Below are positions 20,402 through 37,901 of a DNA stretch of 39,734 nt, piece by piece (within the stretch, counting starts at the first letter, position 1; each line of letters opens with the position of its first letter). This DNA comes from an uncultured Clostridia bacterium (lineage in GTDB: Bacteria; Bacillota; Clostridia; TANB77; CAG-508). The position numbers and the translations under genes were made by a program. The stretch is taken from assembly GCA_947589835.1 (NCBI GenBank), contig CANQCT010000010.1, positions 1 to 39,734 on the forward strand, written 5' to 3'. The notes beneath the pieces were generated by a model, which saw nothing but the letters and a program-made list of their open reading frames with translations, ran no database searches and was not told the origin of the DNA.

Positions 20402-21903
20402 TTTCCTTTCTTCTATGCTTTATAGATGTTATTAATATAGAAGAAACAGGTATCAGCACAACTATATAAGGAATTATATACCTAGATTTTGCTTCCCATA
20501 ATACGTGAAATGCAAATCCACCTATAAATATAGTAATTAAAAATATTAGTTCAAGAGATAGATTTTTTCTATTTTGTATTAAAACTATTAAGCTACACAC
20601 ACAAGTTATTATTAAAAGAACTTTTTGGTAAAAAGTAAGTGGTGCTATAAAATTTTCAAATTGATTACCGATCAGCAGTAGCATTGTTTCTTATAGCAGA
20701 ATATGTATTTTCAGTCCACATTGAAGCAAGCTTTGAAGTATAAAAATAAAAAGTATAGTCAATGTTTTGTGAAAAATAAAGCAATCTATCTTTTACCCTT
20801 TGCACATATTCATCTTTAATATCAGGATTTTGCAAAGCAGGTTCACTAATATTTGAATCATACCAGCCATTAGCTCTGTAACTATCATCTTCCATACCCA
20901 TAAGAATATAACTTATAATAGGATAAGAACTATTTTTATCTAAGTTATATTTATTTAAGTAATAATTTTGAACTAATGTAGATGGAAATATTGAAATAAC
21001 TATATAAGCAATAATTAAACCTACATTTAATAAGTTTTCTTTCCATGGCTTTTTGGTAAAATCTTTAAATAAATTTAACAATAAATATATTACAGTTGCA
21101 ATTACAAATATTAAACTATTCATTCTCATCATATAAGCTATCATTGTAGATAAGCTTGCAAATATAATATACCTAATTTTTTTAGTTTCAGTGTATTTCA
21201 TTGTAAAATAAACTGCAAGCAAACATAAAGCCAAACTTGGAATATCTCCATATATAAATGTTGAAAACATTGGCAAAGTAATAAAAGTTAATAACAATAT
21301 AAACATTAAAACTTTATTAGTTTTATACTTTTTAGAAAGCTGTATATTTATTTTATATAATGAAAATACGATTAAAATAGTAGAAAAAACATTGAGTATT
21401 CTTAGCAAACTTACTTCACTAGAATGTATTATTTTTAAAAAAATGTTATAAATAAACGAAAGTGTAATTTGATGATGATATCTTTGCATATAATCACCTA
21501 AAGAAATTCCAGGAGAGTAAGTAGGATTATTAAGGGCTTCATAATCATTATTATACATTATTTGTGTTACATCACAAGTAGTTCCACAATCTCCATATAT
21601 TCCAGGTCTTACAAAAATAGGCCATAACATAAGAAATATGGCATAAATTGCTACTGCTATAATAGGTAAGCATTTTTTTATTTTAGGATGTTTACAGTTT
21701 TCAGTGTTATATAAATGATCATTTATAAATTTAGCTATGAAAAATATAAATATTCCTAAAGCTATAACACCTATGACATATAAAATAGAGTTAGCATTAA
21801 TTGTAACTGCTTCATTAGCATCTAAATTTGCTGTAAATGAAAAGTTTAAAATAATAATTATACTTAAAAATAATATTCCAAAAATATATATGATTTTTTT
21901 CAA
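20379..21903 (-). CDS. Membrane glycosyltransferase-like protein, frameshifted
   Basis: ORFs 20665-21903 and 20379-20684 are consecutive parts of one ~505-aa multi-TM protein (…MWTENTYSAIRNNAT / LLLIGNQFENFIAPLTFYQKVLLI…GGFAFHVLWEAKSRYIIPYIVVLIP); frame change lies in 20668-20690. Confidence 0.75.
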
Positions 21904-22030
21904 CTTAAATCCATCCTTTTCTATAATTATTTACAAAAAATAAGGTCAAAATTATTATACCATAAATACTTTGTAAAGCAATACATTCTTGAAATTTTAA
22001 AAGCTACTGGTTACTATGTGATTTTATTAA

Positions 22031-22144
22031 GGCTTAAATAGTACTAGTTTTCTTGTTTTTCAAATGCCCGTTGCAGTTAGCAGTTCATAGAAGAAGGTCA
22101 GAACGGGACCTTTCAAAACTGCGAAAAATAGTACTATTTAAGCC
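22031..22144 (+). repeat. Intergenic structured repeat, copy A (full length)
   Basis: Perfect 16-bp terminal inverted repeats GGCTTAAATAGTACTA / TAGTACTATTTAAGCC; internal CCCGTT…AACGGG. Confidence 0.9.
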
Positions 22145-22159
22145 ATTGGTTATAAAGCC

Positions 22160-22258
22160 AGTTTTCTTGTTTTTCAAATTGCCCGTTGCAGAAGTAGGTT
22201 CAGTGAAGAAGGTCAGAACGGGACCTTTCAAAACTGCGAAAAATAGTACTATTTAAGC
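22160..22258 (+). repeat. Intergenic structured repeat, copy B (left terminal arm lost)
   Basis: Near-identical to copies A and C from GTTTTCTTGTTTTTCAAA onward; left GCTTAAATAGTACTA absent. Confidence 0.9.
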
Positions 22259-22372
22259 AATTATATATAAATCTATTAATAAAAAATTTAAGTATTAACA
22301 AAAAATTAAAGTAAGTATTGAGAAACGAAATTTGGTATGATAAAATATTAGCCAGAAAGGAAAGAGAGCAAA

Positions 22373-23869
22373 ATGAAAAAAATAAAGTTAAAATATATAC
22401 ACATAATTGTAATAATAGTAGGAATTGTATTTCTTAGCTTATCAGCATTTCATAGCAATATTTGGTTTGATGAAAGCTATTCAGTAGCAATTGCAAAACA
22501 CAATTTAGCAGATATATGGAAAATTACAGGAAATGATGTGCACCCAGCATTATATTATTGGATGTTACATATAGTGTTTATTATTTTTGGAAATAATGTT
22601 TTAGCCTTTAGGTTATTTTCGGTACTTGCAGTTGTTATACTTGGAATACTTGGCTATACTCATATACAAAAAGATTTTGGAGAAAAAGAAGGAATATTAT
22701 TCTCATTTTTAACATATTTTTTACCAATATGTTCTACATATAGTGGAGCAATTAGAATGTACTCTTGGGCTTGCTTATTTACTTGCCTTTTATGTATTTA
22801 TGCATATCGCTTTTATAAAGGCTTAAACACAAACAAATGGCAAAAGAACCTTATAATTTTTGAAATTTTTAGTATAGCATGTTGCTATATACATTATTAC
22901 GCAACAGTTACAGCCTGCATAGTTAATTTTATATTATTAATATATTTAATAAAAAATAGAAAACAATACAAAAAAGCATTTTATAGTTTTCTAATTTTAG
23001 CCATTGTACAAGTAGCATTATACATTCCATGGGTATTATATTTGTATAAACAACTAAAACATGTTGGAACAGGCTTCTGGATAACTTTAGGAATTAATAC
23101 ATTAGTAGAAGTTCCAAGTTTTCAATTTAGAAGAGAGTTAGATACCGTATTTACCTTTGATGCACCAACAATTATAGCATTAGTAGCTTCAATTTTAATG
23201 TATATATACATAGCATACCGCATTTATAAAGCTAAAAAAGAAAAAGAGAATATTAAGCCAGGAGTATGGGCAATAATAGTATACCTAGCTGTTATAGGAG
23301 CATATTTATTAGTTTCGTATATTTTTTCACCTGTGTTATATTCACGTTATTTATTTGCAATTACAGGAATATACATTTTTGCAATGGCATTTTTTATGGC
23401 AAAAGAAAAGAAAACTTGGGTAACAGTAATAATATGTGCTTTAATTTTAATACTATCTACTTGGAGCAATGTTAAAAACATATTAATTAATTACAATGAA
23501 ACAAATATGAAACAAATAGAATACTTAAAAGAAAATGTTAAAAAAGATGATATAATTATATATTCTAACATTGGAAATGGTGGAGTAATAGCAGCTTTCT
23601 TCCCAGAAAACAAGCAGTATTTTATAAATTTAGGACTCTGGGATATAATAGAAGCATACAAAGCTTATGCACCAGGAATGGAAACAGTATCTAGTTATGA
23701 AGAAGCTATAAATGGTTATACTGGTAGAATTTGGCTTATAGATTCAGAATATCCAGATTTATATAATAATTTTCCAAAGGAAGGAATAAGCTTAATTAAA
23801 GGGCCAATAAAATTCGAAACAGAATATCAGGGTTATATATATAATTTTTTCTTATTAGAAAAGAAGTAA
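22373..23869 (+). CDS. Membrane glycosyltransferase, GT39-like
   Basis: 498 aa, SNIWFDESYSVAIAKHNLADIWKITGNDVHPALYYWMLHIVFIIFGNNVLAFRLFSVL, hallmark GT39/PMT-like N-terminus. Confidence 0.85.
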   Translation: MKKIKLKYIHIIVIIVGIVFLSLSAFHSNIWFDESYSVAIAKHNLADIWKITGNDVHPALYYWMLHIVFIIFGNNVLAFRLFSVLAVVILGILGYTHIQKDFGEKEGILFSFLTYFLPICSTYSGAIRMYSWACLFTCLLCIYAYRFYKGLNTNKWQKNLIIFEIFSIACCYIHYYATVTACIVNFILLIYLIKNRKQYKKAFYSFLILAIVQVALYIPWVLYLYKQLKHVGTGFWITLGINTLVEVPSFQFRRELDTVFTFDAPTIIALVASILMYIYIAYRIYKAKKEKENIKPGVWAIIVYLAVIGAYLLVSYIFSPVLYSRYLFAITGIYIFAMAFFMAKEKKTWVTVIICALILILSTWSNVKNILINYNETNMKQIEYLKENVKKDDIIIYSNIGNGGVIAAFFPENKQYFINLGLWDIIEAYKAYAPGMETVSSYEEAINGYTGRIWLIDSEYPDLYNNFPKEGISLIKGPIKFETEYQGYIYNFFLLEKK

Positions 23870-23940
23870 AAAATTTTACGTTTTTTATGCAATAAGAAGA
23901 AAAAAGTAAAAAATTTTACAGCTTTTTATACAAGTAAGAA
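23859..23940 (+). repeat. Short imperfect tandem repeat spanning a gene end
   Basis: GAAAAGAAGTAAAAAATTTTACG-TTTTTTATGCAATAAGAA followed by GAAAAAAGTAAAAAATTTTACAGCTTTTTATACAAGTAAGAA; the first unit contains the TAA stop. Confidence 0.7.
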
Positions 23941-23959
23941 AAAAGAAAGGAATTTTTAA

Positions 23960-25510
23960 ATGCAAATTTTTAGTAGTATAAATCAATCAGAAGATATAAA
24001 AGTATATGCTTTTGTTGGACCATCTGGAACAGGAAAAAGTTATAGAGCACAAATGGTAGCAAATGAAAATGGAATTAGTTATATTATAGATGATGGTTTA
24101 TTAATTAATGAAAATAATGTTATTTGTGGTACATCAGCAAAAAAAGCGCCTACAAAGCTTGAAACAGTAAAAGGTGCAATATTTGTAAATGAAAAAGAAA
24201 GAAATGAAATGAAAAAGGCTATTAGAAAGTACAAACCAAAATCTATTTTAATTTTGGGTACTTCAGATGGAATGATAGAAAAAATAGCAGAAAATTTAGG
24301 ACTTCCAAAGCCATGTAAAACAATATATATTCAAGATGTAGCAACAGAAACAGAAATGGAAACAGCCAAAAGAATTCGCACTACCCAAGGAAAGCATGTT
24401 ATACCAGTACCAACATTTGAAATAAAAAAAGATTTTTCAGGATATATTTTAGACCCTTTACAAATATTTAAGTTAAAAGAAAAGGGGGATGAGCCATATA
24501 TGGCAGAAAAATCAATTATTAGACCAACTTTTAGTTATTTAGGAAAGTTTACTATTTCAGATACGGTATTTAGGCAAATTACAGAATATTTGGCAAAGCG
24601 TTCAGATGCAATATATAAGGTAATGAGAACAAGAGTAGAAAGCAAACCAGAAGGACCAAATATATATATGGAAGTTTCTATTAACTATGGCTACAATATA
24701 CTAGAAGCACTAAGAGAATTCAAACAAAAAATAAAAAAGGAAATCGAAATTTTAACCACTATGACTGTACAAGATATAACAATTGTGGCAAAAGGAATTC
24801 ATATTGAAGGAGATCCTAAAAAGCAAGCTAAAACCTTTATTGTGGCAATAGATGGACCATCTGGAACTGGAAAAGGAACTATAACAAAATTAATAGCAAA
24901 GGAAATGGGCTTATTAAATATAGATACAGGTGCAATGTATCGTTCATTAGCACTTAAATGTTTAAAATCAGGAATAAACACATTAGAAGAAAAAGAAAAA
25001 ATTATAGAAATTGCTAAAAATATTAATATTGAAATAAAACACAATAGGGAAAATCAAGAAATATTTTTAGATGAAGAAAATGTAACCACGGAAATTAGAA
25101 CAAAAGAAGTAACAGCCTTTTCTTCGGCAGTATCTTCTATTCCAGAAGTTAGAGAAATTATGGTGGCTATGCAAAGAAAAATGGCACAAAATAAAAATGT
25201 AATTATGGAAGGAAGAGATATTACAACAGTGGTATTTCCAAATGCAGATGTAAAAATATATTTAGATGCTAGCCTTGAGGAAAGAGCTAGAAGAAGATAT
25301 GAAGAAAACAAAGAAAAAGGAATACAAGAAACATTTGAAGCAACTTTGAAAGCAATGGAAAAAAGAGATTATGATGATACTCATAGAGAAGTAGCACCTT
25401 TGAAAATAGCAGAAGATGCAATAGTAGTAGATACTACAAAACTAACTATTGAGGAAGTAAAAGAAAAGGTAAGAGAAATTATTAATGAAAAATATAATAA
25501 TAAAAAATAG
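23960..25510 (+). CDS. cmk: Fusion: N-terminal P-loop NTPase + Asp23/Gls24-like domain + cytidylate kinase
   Basis: First Walker A GPSGTGKS at the N-terminus; middle SYLGKFTISDTVFRQITEYLAKR…IYMEVSINYGYNILEALREFKQKIKKEIEILTTMTVQDITIVAKGIHI (Asp23-like); C-term IVAIDGPSGTGKGTITKLIAKEMGLLNIDTGAMYRSLAL…VIMEGRDITTVVFPNADVKIYLDAS (Cmk). Confidence 0.85.
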   Translation: MQIFSSINQSEDIKVYAFVGPSGTGKSYRAQMVANENGISYIIDDGLLINENNVICGTSAKKAPTKLETVKGAIFVNEKERNEMKKAIRKYKPKSILILGTSDGMIEKIAENLGLPKPCKTIYIQDVATETEMETAKRIRTTQGKHVIPVPTFEIKKDFSGYILDPLQIFKLKEKGDEPYMAEKSIIRPTFSYLGKFTISDTVFRQITEYLAKRSDAIYKVMRTRVESKPEGPNIYMEVSINYGYNILEALREFKQKIKKEIEILTTMTVQDITIVAKGIHIEGDPKKQAKTFIVAIDGPSGTGKGTITKLIAKEMGLLNIDTGAMYRSLALKCLKSGINTLEEKEKIIEIAKNINIEIKHNRENQEIFLDEENVTTEIRTKEVTAFSSAVSSIPEVREIMVAMQRKMAQNKNVIMEGRDITTVVFPNADVKIYLDASLEERARRRYEENKEKGIQETFEATLKAMEKRDYDDTHREVAPLKIAEDAIVVDTTKLTIEEVKEKVREIINEKYNNKK

Positions 25511-25537
25511 TGTTACTAATAGTTTTATAACTAACTT

Positions 25538-25651
25538 GCTTAAATAGTACTAGTTTTCTTGTTTTTCAAATTGCCCGTTGCAGAAGCCAGTTCAAAGAAG
25601 TAAAGTCAGAACGGGACCTTTCAAAACTGCGAAAAATAGTACTATTTAAGC
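25538..25651 (+). repeat. Intergenic structured repeat, copy C (full length)
   Basis: Perfect 15-bp terminal inverted repeats GCTTAAATAGTACTA / TAGTACTATTTAAGC; otherwise near-identical to A and B outside one variable window. Confidence 0.9.
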
Positions 25652-25695
25652 TTTAATATATATAGTAACAAAATAGTAAAAAAAGGTGAATTAAA

Positions 25696-26283
25696 ATGAT
25701 TAGAAGAATAGTTATAGCTTTGCTACGTGTAATTTTTTTAATATTGTTTAGGGTAGAAAAAGTAGGAGAAAAAAATATACCAAAAGAAGGTGCATACATA
25801 GTATGTGCAAATCATAGGTCAAATTGGGATCCACCAATTTTAGTATCTTCAATTAAAAGGGTTTCATACATAATGGCAAAAGAAGAGTTATTTAAAAATA
25901 ATTTCATTAAGTGGATAGCCAAAAAATGCTGTGTATTTCCTGTAAAAAGAGGAAAAATGGACATAGAATCTATGAAATTTGCTCTAAAAGTTCTAAAAGA
26001 TGAACAAATTTTGGTAATTTTTCCAGAAGGAACCAGAAATGGTATGGAAAAGAACGGAAGAGCTCAAAATGGTACTGCATTTATGGCTTTAAAAACTGGA
26101 GTGCCTGTAATTCCGGTTGGAATTCAAGGAACATTAAAGCCATTTCATAAAGTTAAATTAAATTATGGAAAGCCATTAGATTTTAGCAAATACAAAACAA
26201 ATAAACCGGAAAAAGAGCTTTTAGATAAGGTAAGCAAAGAAATAATGGATAACATAATTATGTTGACAAATGAGAAAATTTAA
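25696..26283 (+). CDS. plsC: 1-acyl-sn-glycerol-3-phosphate acyltransferase
   Basis: YIVCANHRSNWDPPIL (NHxxxxD), IFPEGTRNGMEKNGRAQNGTAFMALKTGVPVIPVGIQG; cmk-plsC order is classic. Confidence 0.93.
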   Translation: MIRRIVIALLRVIFLILFRVEKVGEKNIPKEGAYIVCANHRSNWDPPILVSSIKRVSYIMAKEELFKNNFIKWIAKKCCVFPVKRGKMDIESMKFALKVLKDEQILVIFPEGTRNGMEKNGRAQNGTAFMALKTGVPVIPVGIQGTLKPFHKVKLNYGKPLDFSKYKTNKPEKELLDKVSKEIMDNIIMLTNEKI

Positions 26284-35637: not shown

Positions 35638-37824
35638 ATGTTGTTAAAAAACATTTTAATAAATAGAATTATAAGCTTATTATGCATTATTATACTATTT
35701 TCGAGTTTAATTATGCTTTTTATTAAAAATGATACTAAAGCAGCAACTGTAGATGAAGAACTAAAAGCTTTTGAACCATATCCAGGCTATGTAGATTTAT
35801 TAAAAAAATTAAAAGAAGCCCATCCAAACTGGACTTTTGAAATTTTAAAAACAAATTTAAAATGGCCTGAAGTAATTATTGCAGAATCTACAGGCTATCA
35901 TGGAAGAAATGTAGTTCCAAAAAGCTGGGGAAGTGCATATAAATGTGCGTGCGGAAAGGTAGTAGATGCAAGCTGGGTATGTGCTTCAACTGCTACTGTT
36001 GCATATTATATGGACCCTAGAAATTCTTTAAATGAAGACTATATTTTTCAATTTGAAAAATTAACTTTAGGAACTGTTTCTAAAGAAGAATTAGCACAAC
36101 TAGAAAAAGGTGTAGAAAAAATTATTGCAGACTGTAACTACTTACAAGGCAAAATTGAATATTATGATACAAAAGGCAAAAAACAAACAATAGATAAAAC
36201 ATATTTACAAGTTATTATGGAAGCTGCACAAAAATATAATGTAAGCCCATATCACCTAGCTTCAAGAATACGCCAAGAGCAAGGCACAGACGATGGTAGC
36301 ATTATGATTAAAGGCACATATAAAGGCTATGAAGGCTTATATAATTACTTTAATGTTGAAGCATTTGGAAGCACAACAGAAAAAATTATTACAAGAGGTT
36401 TAACTAGTGCTAGAGAGTATGGCTGGACAGATCCAGAAAAAGCAATTAATGGCGGGGCTTCTGTAATTTCAAAAAGTTATACTTCACAAGGTCAGTATAC
36501 TTTATACTTAGAAAAATTTGATGTAGAAAAAACAAATGGAATTTATACACACCAATATATGACAAATGTTTCTGCATCTAAAACAGAAGGAGAAGAAATC
36601 CGTGAAGCATATAGAGATATAGGAATGATTTCAAAAGAATCTAAAATGATATTTAAAATTCCTGTATATGAAGATATGCCAGAAATGCAATCACAAATAC
36701 CTGGCACAGAGCAAATGGTTACAGAAGATGTAAAAATAAATGCAGATAAAGTAGAAGTTAAATCTGGAAAAGGCACAGATTTTACAACAATAACTACATT
36801 AAATAAAGATGAAAAAATATTAAGAATAGAACTTGATAATAGCAAAGATTCAAAAGGAAAATCATGGGATAAAGTAGTTTTAAGCGATGGAAAAAAAGGC
36901 TATGTAATGAGAGATTACTTAACTAAAATTAGTATTCAAAATCCTTTAAACGAAGAATACATTGTTACAGCATACACTAATTTTAGAAATGGTCCAGGAA
37001 CTACATATACCACTATTTTAAAAGTACTTTCACCTGGTCAAATGGTAACTGTTGTTGAAAAAGATAAATATAAAAGTATAGATAAAGAAGATTGGTATAG
37101 AGTAAAAACAGCAGATGGCTTATATGGCTATGTTGGAACAGACTATATAGCAAAATATAACCCAAATACAAGCCCAATAGATAAAGTAAAAGTAGTTTGT
37201 ACAGATGGCTTAAACATCAGAAAAGAGCCAAGTTCTAACAAATCTGTTCAAATATTAAAAACAGTACCAGAAAATACTATATTAACAAGAACTGAAAAAG
37301 ATGTAAAAAGTTCAGATACTAAATATATATGGGATAAAGTAACTACTTCTGGAGGAGTTGTTGGCTATGTGGCAAGACAAGACCCAGAAACTAAAAAAGC
37401 TTGGATAGAGCCTATAAATAACAATAATAATGAAGACCCAAAAATTGAAGGCAAGGGCTTCAAAATAATCAACAATAATTTAGTTTGCGAGCCTAATATA
37501 ACAGTAGAAAATATAAAAAGTGTAGCAAGTACAGTAACAATTAAAGATGGAAATACTACTAAAACTACAGGAAATTTAGCAACAGGCTGGAAAATTACTG
37601 CTGGCGAAAAAACATATTCTATTGTAGTAAAAGGCGATGTAAATGGCGATGGAAAAGTAAGTTCAGCAGATTATGTAAGAATTAAAAATTATATACTTAA
37701 AAAAGTAAAATTAACTAAAGAACAAGAAAGCGCATCAGATGCCACAGGAGATGGAAAAACCTCTTCAGCAGACTATGTGAGAGTAAAAAATTATATACTT
37801 AAAAAAGCAAGCATCACAATATAA
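35638..37824 (+). CDS. Secreted glucosaminidase-like autolysin with SH3 domains and C-terminal type I dockerin
   Basis: N-terminal signal/TM; YLQVIMEAAQKYNVSPYHLASRIRQEQG…YKGYEGLYNYFNVEAFG…REYGWTDPEKAINGGASVISKSYTSQGQYTLYLEKFDV; SH3 repeats (NFRNGPGTTYTTILKVLSPGQMVTVVEK; LNIRKEPSSNKSVQILKTV); dockerin GDVNGDGKVSSADYVRIKNYILKK…SDATGDGKTSSADYVRVKNYILKK. Confidence 0.9.
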   Translation: MLLKNILINRIISLLCIIILFSSLIMLFIKNDTKAATVDEELKAFEPYPGYVDLLKKLKEAHPNWTFEILKTNLKWPEVIIAESTGYHGRNVVPKSWGSAYKCACGKVVDASWVCASTATVAYYMDPRNSLNEDYIFQFEKLTLGTVSKEELAQLEKGVEKIIADCNYLQGKIEYYDTKGKKQTIDKTYLQVIMEAAQKYNVSPYHLASRIRQEQGTDDGSIMIKGTYKGYEGLYNYFNVEAFGSTTEKIITRGLTSAREYGWTDPEKAINGGASVISKSYTSQGQYTLYLEKFDVEKTNGIYTHQYMTNVSASKTEGEEIREAYRDIGMISKESKMIFKIPVYEDMPEMQSQIPGTEQMVTEDVKINADKVEVKSGKGTDFTTITTLNKDEKILRIELDNSKDSKGKSWDKVVLSDGKKGYVMRDYLTKISIQNPLNEEYIVTAYTNFRNGPGTTYTTILKVLSPGQMVTVVEKDKYKSIDKEDWYRVKTADGLYGYVGTDYIAKYNPNTSPIDKVKVVCTDGLNIRKEPSSNKSVQILKTVPENTILTRTEKDVKSSDTKYIWDKVTTSGGVVGYVARQDPETKKAWIEPINNNNNEDPKIEGKGFKIINNNLVCEPNITVENIKSVASTVTIKDGNTTKTTGNLATGWKITAGEKTYSIVVKGDVNGDGKVSSADYVRIKNYILKKVKLTKEQESASDATGDGKTSSADYVRVKNYILKKASITI

Positions 37825-37901
37825 CAAAAGAAAAATAAAATACTATTATTTCTAAAAATTTTTAATCTAAATAAGTTAGAAATAAAATAAAGGAGACCAA
37901 A

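Follow-up and report, generated by a model that had tools for sequence, protein, structure and literature searches.

A palindromic repeat of one genus of uncultured gut bacteria, probably mobile, with a core that apparently flips or drops out in place

The genome of an uncultured Clostridia bacterium carries, between its genes, many copies of a repeat that is probably a lineage-specific, non-autonomous mobile palindrome. On this reading the repeat is MITE-like, modular in the manner of BOX elements, with a core that flips or drops out at the 8-bp sequence TAGTACTA, and it is moved in trans by a putative enzyme. Comparison of copies across assembled genomes shows intergenic dispersal, stem covariation, core-less copies, a locus with and without the core, inversion of the core in place, and a strand bias of the core only. 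As judged by database searches, the family is new and is restricted to one genus of uncultured gut bacteria. Small palindromic repeats are common in bacteria, and how they spread, or whether their pairing has its basis in RNA or in DNA, is rarely testable. This family offers several independent handles on repeat spread and on RNA selection versus DNA mechanics: covariation with no preference for G-U, alleles with and without the core, inversion in place, and a strand bias of the inner module. It also carries a warning, which is that strong covariation alone does not prove an RNA.

The window (the whole 39,734-nucleotide stretch that we analysed) contains three copies, A, B, and C (Table 1). 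They are intergenic and in the same orientation, and their coordinates, orientation, and arms, as given in a preliminary description, were confirmed by a check of the sequence. The 114-nt unit of that description is real, but it is the inner part of a larger element, in which an outer arm of about 30 bp extends it at either end. The interior of copy A is CAAATGCCC, not CAAATTGCCC as had been stated; both versions are common in the family. The terminal inverted repeats of A (16 bp) and C (15 bp) are perfect, while B consists of the core and the right arm, with a remnant of outer-arm sequence in place of the left stem. The whole element around copy C runs from about 25512 to 25669 (GTTACT...AGTAAC). 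RNA folds of A and C are 4.2-7.0 standard deviations below dinucleotide shuffles. At the A/B locus, the relative G013 has a single decayed copy, which makes the tandem a later event. The C locus is empty in G013 and G019, and G026 keeps the right part alone.

Table 1. Parts of the three copies, in positions of the window
Feature	Positions	Strand	Basis
Left outer arm of copy A, X type, partly decayed, GTTACTATGTGATTTTATTAA	22010..22030	+	Likeness to the X-arm consensus of other copies
Copy A: core between two 16-bp stem arms	22031..22144	+	R1 covariance model, 130 bits
Truncated outer arm, reverse X type, between A and B, at the expected place of B's left stem arm	22145..22159	+	Comparison with the X-arm consensus
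Copy B: core with its right stem arm; the left one has been lost	22160..22258	+	R1 covariance model, 92 bits
Putative decayed right outer arm of copy B (weak)	22259..22281	+	Position and A+T-rich similarity only
Left outer arm of copy C, X type, begins GTTACT	25512..25537	+	Sequence and arm consensus
Copy C: core between two 15-bp stem arms	25538..25651	+	R1 covariance model, 127.5 bits
Right outer arm of copy C, shortened Y type, ends AGTAAC	25652..25669	+	Sequence and arm consensus
TAGTACTA, 8-bp palindrome at the inner end of C's left stem arm (twin at 25637-25644); proposed flip or deletion point	25545..25552	+	Sequence comparison

The full unit is a modular palindrome of about 160-175 bp, in which outer arms (X and Y) and a 15-bp stem that ends in TAGTACTA enclose a core of about 84 nt, itself an imperfect hairpin. 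The outer ends (GTTACTA...TAGTAAC) form a terminal inverted repeat, and the inner repeats are perfect over 15-16 bp. Read towards the core, X is GTTACTAGTTAATGGTTTTATAGTTAACCC and Y is GTTACTATATAATAGTTATAATTACATTAAA; independent copies are similar over about 30 bases per side. One X and one Y arm were present in 58 of the 61 copies that we typed (40 were X-core-Y and 18 were Y-core-X), and the other 3 had the same type twice. The whole consensus forms a single long DNA hairpin, 5 standard deviations below shuffles. From the outside in, the 15-bp stem is followed by the pairs TTTTC/GAAAA and then, past an internal loop, by GTTTT/AAAAC; a second, larger internal loop separates these from CCCGTT/AACGGG, which closes a terminal loop where a conserved TTCAAAGAAG lies within variable sequence. 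The letters of the internal loops are nearly invariant, even between copies with wholly different outer stems. In the more distant members (from G006, G011, G021, and G029), the core sits in very different stems and the X and Y arms are absent. Species without the core have at most a few weak matches to the arms. In four copies from G011 (L079, L149, L155, and L161), the larger internal loop is closed by pairing of GTTTTCAAAAT with ATTTTGAAAAC, which means that not all members of the family have the bubble.

The genome and its relatives contain many further copies, by BLASTN, by pattern counts, and by the covariance model. With up to 2 mismatches, the 15-letter stem arm GCTTAAATAGTACTA has 141 forward and 147 reverse matches in this genome, versus 3 and 1 for a control with the pattern reversed. 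BLASTN found over 40 copies with only 40 of 175 candidates scored. The exact centre of the core, AATAGTACTATT, occurs 136 times in this genome (G000), 46 times in G026, 30 in G009, 29 in G019, 24 in G013, and 1-4 times in each of nine other searched genomes of the genus. The window and 20 other stretches of the genome, 434 kb in all, hold 33 good copies and 7 core-less ones, from which we estimate that the 1.59-Mb genome has about 120-140 core-bearing copies. The copies are spread over gaps between co-directional, divergent, and convergent genes about as the intergenic length of each class would predict.

Within the genus, the covariance model detects the repeat in 9 genomes, and BLASTN adds four more. 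The model had no match in 273 genomes from other genera of the same taxonomic family, and viral contigs, phages, and plasmids had no match to the repeat. Those relatives that have named records are MAGs of uncultured Clostridia with the label "Lapin" (French for rabbit). Given that the repeat is non-coding, short, palindromic, dispersed, lineage-specific, and present or absent at orthologous sites, "MITE-like element" was an apt name for it. The outer arms, the core-less copies, and the inversion of the core are beyond what the preliminary description could see. As for target-site duplications, we found no clean empty site for the whole element, and alignments show ragged outer ends. G005 has a single well-preserved core (C4:33602-33714; L073 and L138), at a locus common to G000 and G019. 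The family is otherwise nearly absent from G005, and this lone copy could reflect either near-complete loss or a single gain.

Core-less copies consist of the arms around a palindrome, GCTTAAATAGTACTATTTAAGC. At one orthologous locus, the core is present in G000 and G013, and the same site is precisely without it in G026 and G009. Since TAGTACTA is its own reverse complement, its two copies at the borders of the core form a direct repeat and an inverted repeat simultaneously. Among 45 groups of orthologous loci, 9 include a core that is inverted relative to the flanking DNA. In the clearest case, L035 (G009) and L354 (G026) are inverted relative to L343 (G019); L035 and L343 have the same flanking arms, and the loop is identical to that of L343 at 29/29 positions (L035) or 28/29 positions (L354). 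At a second locus (L349 versus L344), loop identity is 26/28. For random copies, the median loop identity is 0.70 and the 95th percentile is 0.85. In the other inverted cases, either the element flipped as a whole or one gap holds different copies.

These comparisons of orthologous loci, which are between species and from assemblies, show that the inner cassette can flip or drop out in place while the pairing of the hairpin is kept. Artefacts of assembly are an unlikely explanation for the inversions because the arms and the loop letters match the orthologue. We favour loss of the core as the origin of the core-less copies, since the ends of the core-bearing stems in more distant members are not self-palindromic. 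For the same reason we disfavour the possible alternative that the core is a pre-inserted passenger with an 8-bp target duplication.

Covariation among diverse copies is strong. Two-sided changes occur at 18 of 31 pairs in an alignment of 25 diverse copies, and at 22 of 31 in an alignment of 124 distinct rows that had been fitted to the structure (204 cells, versus 26.6 in shuffles and 36 or fewer in slid controls). In the inner stem, CCGTT/AACGG alternates with CCGAG/CTCGG and CCAAG/CTTGG. In the outer stem, the variants GCTTAAA, GCTTGAA, GCTCGAA, GCTTGCA, GCTAGAA, and GCTTTAA each occur with their exact complement, and the stem subfamilies are perfectly paired. Such covariation, together with nearly invariant internal loops, would be explained if the repeat were a structured RNA that was dispersed by duplication, with the core transcribed with its neighbours and acting in cis on, for instance, the stability or processing of mRNA, and with selection on the RNA keeping the stems and bubbles. 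We consider this explanation unlikely. Selection on RNA pairing is expected to favour G-U over A-C among single changes, but among departures in a single arm, we found 19 G-U, 23 A-C, and 29 other mismatches. Because G-U is not preferred, the pairing signal is not specifically RNA-like. It fits upkeep at the level of DNA, such as copying from arm to arm, followed by ordinary decay of the copies. Nor did Rfam have a matching family, at either gathering or permissive thresholds, which agrees with the preliminary description. That description had also offered "dispersed RNA element" as an interpretation; the strong covariation does not speak against it, but the RNA part of the interpretation lacks an RNA-specific pairing signal, while the MITE-like part is supported. 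Divergence at orthologous loci seems to speak for an RNA, in that the stem and core diverge less than the loop and arms. Our first estimate (stem 1.4%, loop 8.4%, arms 7.5%, flanks 9.3%) was biased, as the copies had been found by the similarity of their cores. When orthologous copies were fetched by their flanks, divergence was 9.3% for the stem and core halves, 32% for the loop, 28% for the arms, and 9.5% for the flanks, in a small sample whose pairs may include independent insertions or replaced cores. The better-kept stem and core, and internal-loop letters that are conserved beyond what a passive repeat needs, could reflect selection for a function in the host. We set aside purifying selection in place as proof of function, since one estimate is biased and the other is from a small sample with doubtful pairs. 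We also rejected an intrinsic terminator: a scan over 21900-25720 found none, and the location of the copies follows intergenic length.

The orientation of the core bears on the same question. In gaps between co-directional genes, the core is on the strand of the genes by 77:16 (p about 1e-10), as would be expected of an RNA that is transcribed with its neighbours. But divergent and convergent gaps are occupied as well as co-directional ones, in proportion to intergenic length, and the core inverts in place. The bias also holds where the neighbours differ in direction. With local GC skew as a proxy for the replication strand (although gene strand itself influences the skew), the core goes with the skew by 26:4 in the 434-kb sample (p = 6e-5), versus 10:13 for the orientation of the arms. 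In a wider sample, these counts are 51:18 for the core and 30:32 for the arms. Where the neighbours do not share the regional direction (convergent, divergent, or counter-oriented genes), 9 of the 10 cores in the 434-kb sample go with the skew. In a second sample, the core does so by 10:2 in convergent gaps, 17:10 in divergent gaps, and 6:1 in counter-oriented ones; this sample shares the window's copies with the 434-kb sample, and its regions were partly picked for cores opposed to their neighbours. These counter-examples led us to reject orientation by local transcription alone. Replication explains the bias no less well than transcription does, and we favour the view that replication, rather than transcription, sets the orientation of the core.

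A strand bias with replication would also suit movement of the hairpin as single-stranded DNA by a Y1 (HUH) transposase, either IS200/IS605-like or REP-associated (RAYT), in the manner of REP and REPIN sequences; a preference for the lagging strand is documented for IS200/IS605 elements (PMC6006769). The hairpin with conserved bubbles and the two Y1 genes in G000, which are short and of the IS200 type, are consistent with this. But G013 has no Y1 genes, and longer RAYT-like Y1 proteins (mostly 225-291 amino acids) were not found in G000, G013, or G019, yet they occur in many genomes that lack the element. Also, the ends of the element are symmetric, and by eye, the DNA around the IS200 copy that we examined in G000 is unlike the element. 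The distribution of the Y1 genes does not fit a RAYT or IS200 transposase as the resident mobiliser, and we consider movement by a Y1 enzyme to be very improbable. Alternatively, the core could be a site-specific cassette: an enzyme would cut at TAGTACTA, giving a circle with the junction GAAAAATAGTACTAGTTTTC, which would re-insert either way into the GCTTAAATAGTACTATTTAAGC of a separate palindromic repeat. This single mechanism would account for both orientations, the core-less sites, the precise difference between sites with and without the core, and the strand bias of the core only. We still think it quite unlikely. In the older lineages, the stems that bear a core are not self-palindromic at their inner ends, and the core-free species, with their few weak arm matches at most, make the arms look unlike a pre-existing family of receptors. 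Furthermore, the number of tyrosine recombinase hits does not correlate with copy number (G013 has 3 hits and G006 has 23), so we rejected tyrosine recombinases as the mobiliser by gene count. Searches of the Y1 and tyrosine recombinase families identified no mobilising enzyme in the incomplete assembly, which also yielded no autonomous element with the same ends.

We return to the mobile, MITE-like palindrome, which we prefer. An enzyme acting in trans would recognise the hairpin and disperse the whole unit. Exchange or template switching at the copies of TAGTACTA would flip the core, and extrusion of the hairpin at the replication fork may aid this. Slippage between the two copies of TAGTACTA would delete the core and leave GCTTAAATAGTACTATTTAAGC. 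Copying of one arm of the hairpin onto the other would give perfectly paired stem variants without G-U intermediates. A more far-reaching proposal is that over 100 dispersed cassettes flip or drop out in living populations, as fork-oriented invertible hairpins that are moved or flipped as single-stranded DNA and that perhaps switch neighbouring transcripts; this is a speculative idea that we put forward with little confidence.

Among known repeats, the closest in architecture is BOX from pneumococcus (boxA-boxB-boxC), which has about 125 copies per genome and is intergenic, modular, largely lineage-restricted, and predicted to form a hairpin (PMC3049150). In BOX, the flanking modules form an outer stem, the inner module is optional, and the number of boxB modules varies in tandem (PMC3049150). 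The likeness extends to copy number, intergenic sites, and an optional inner module between complementary outer modules, and is one of architecture only. The sequence and the host lineage are different, and here a copy has one core, in either orientation, or none. Both the covariation of the stems and the bias of the core towards the replication strand were measured for the present repeat. Because the repeat is confined to one genus of another lineage, it is unlikely to be a member of the BOX family.

Classical bacterial MITEs such as RUP, Correia, ERIC, and Nezha are short, non-coding, A+T-rich, and dispersed, with terminal inverted repeats, and they form hairpins (PMC10969869, PMC2229807). 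Our repeat shares all of these features (including a length within 50-500 bp) but differs in its nested architecture and its separately behaving core, and we found neither a target-site duplication in the ragged-ended alignments nor a cognate transposase in the two enzyme families searched. Like REP, BIME, and REPIN sequences, which are extragenic palindromes associated with RAYT (PMC2817692, PMC3116915), the repeat is an extragenic palindrome with over 100 copies. Unlike them, it is longer and three-layered, and we found no RAYT-type gene in the most copy-rich genome. The core also resembles invertons, or phase-variable invertible segments (PMC5903667, PMC10939037), in being short DNA between perfect inverted repeats that is found in both orientations at orthologous loci (L035/L354 versus L343, and L349 versus L344). 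It differs in belonging to a repeat family of over 100 copies and in that inversion is inferred between species rather than within a population. By eye, we recognised no promoter in the core.

Two loci in this genome have repeated sequences beside a copy. At L242 (about 7650-7816 of contig C14), irregular direct repeats (tttaatagtttaaa / aatagcttaaat) adjoin a copy and resemble multiplied half-stems. At L243 (about 7718-7960 of contig C13), tandem units of a half-palindrome and an arm (TAGTACTATTAAAGC-ATTAATG...) resemble nested or slipped copies with TAGTA at the junctions.

Within the window, positions 23960-25510 encode a protein in which a cytidylate kinase domain at the C terminus (PF02224) is fused to a P-loop region at the N terminus, with weak similarity to Asp23 in between; this is an unusual order of domains. 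The protein encoded at 35638-37824 combines a bacterial SH3 domain with a dockerin type I domain at its C terminus, which hints at cohesin-dockerin assembly in this lineage. Two direct repeats at 37636-37827, which are 76% identical as DNA, match the dockerin region of this gene in position.
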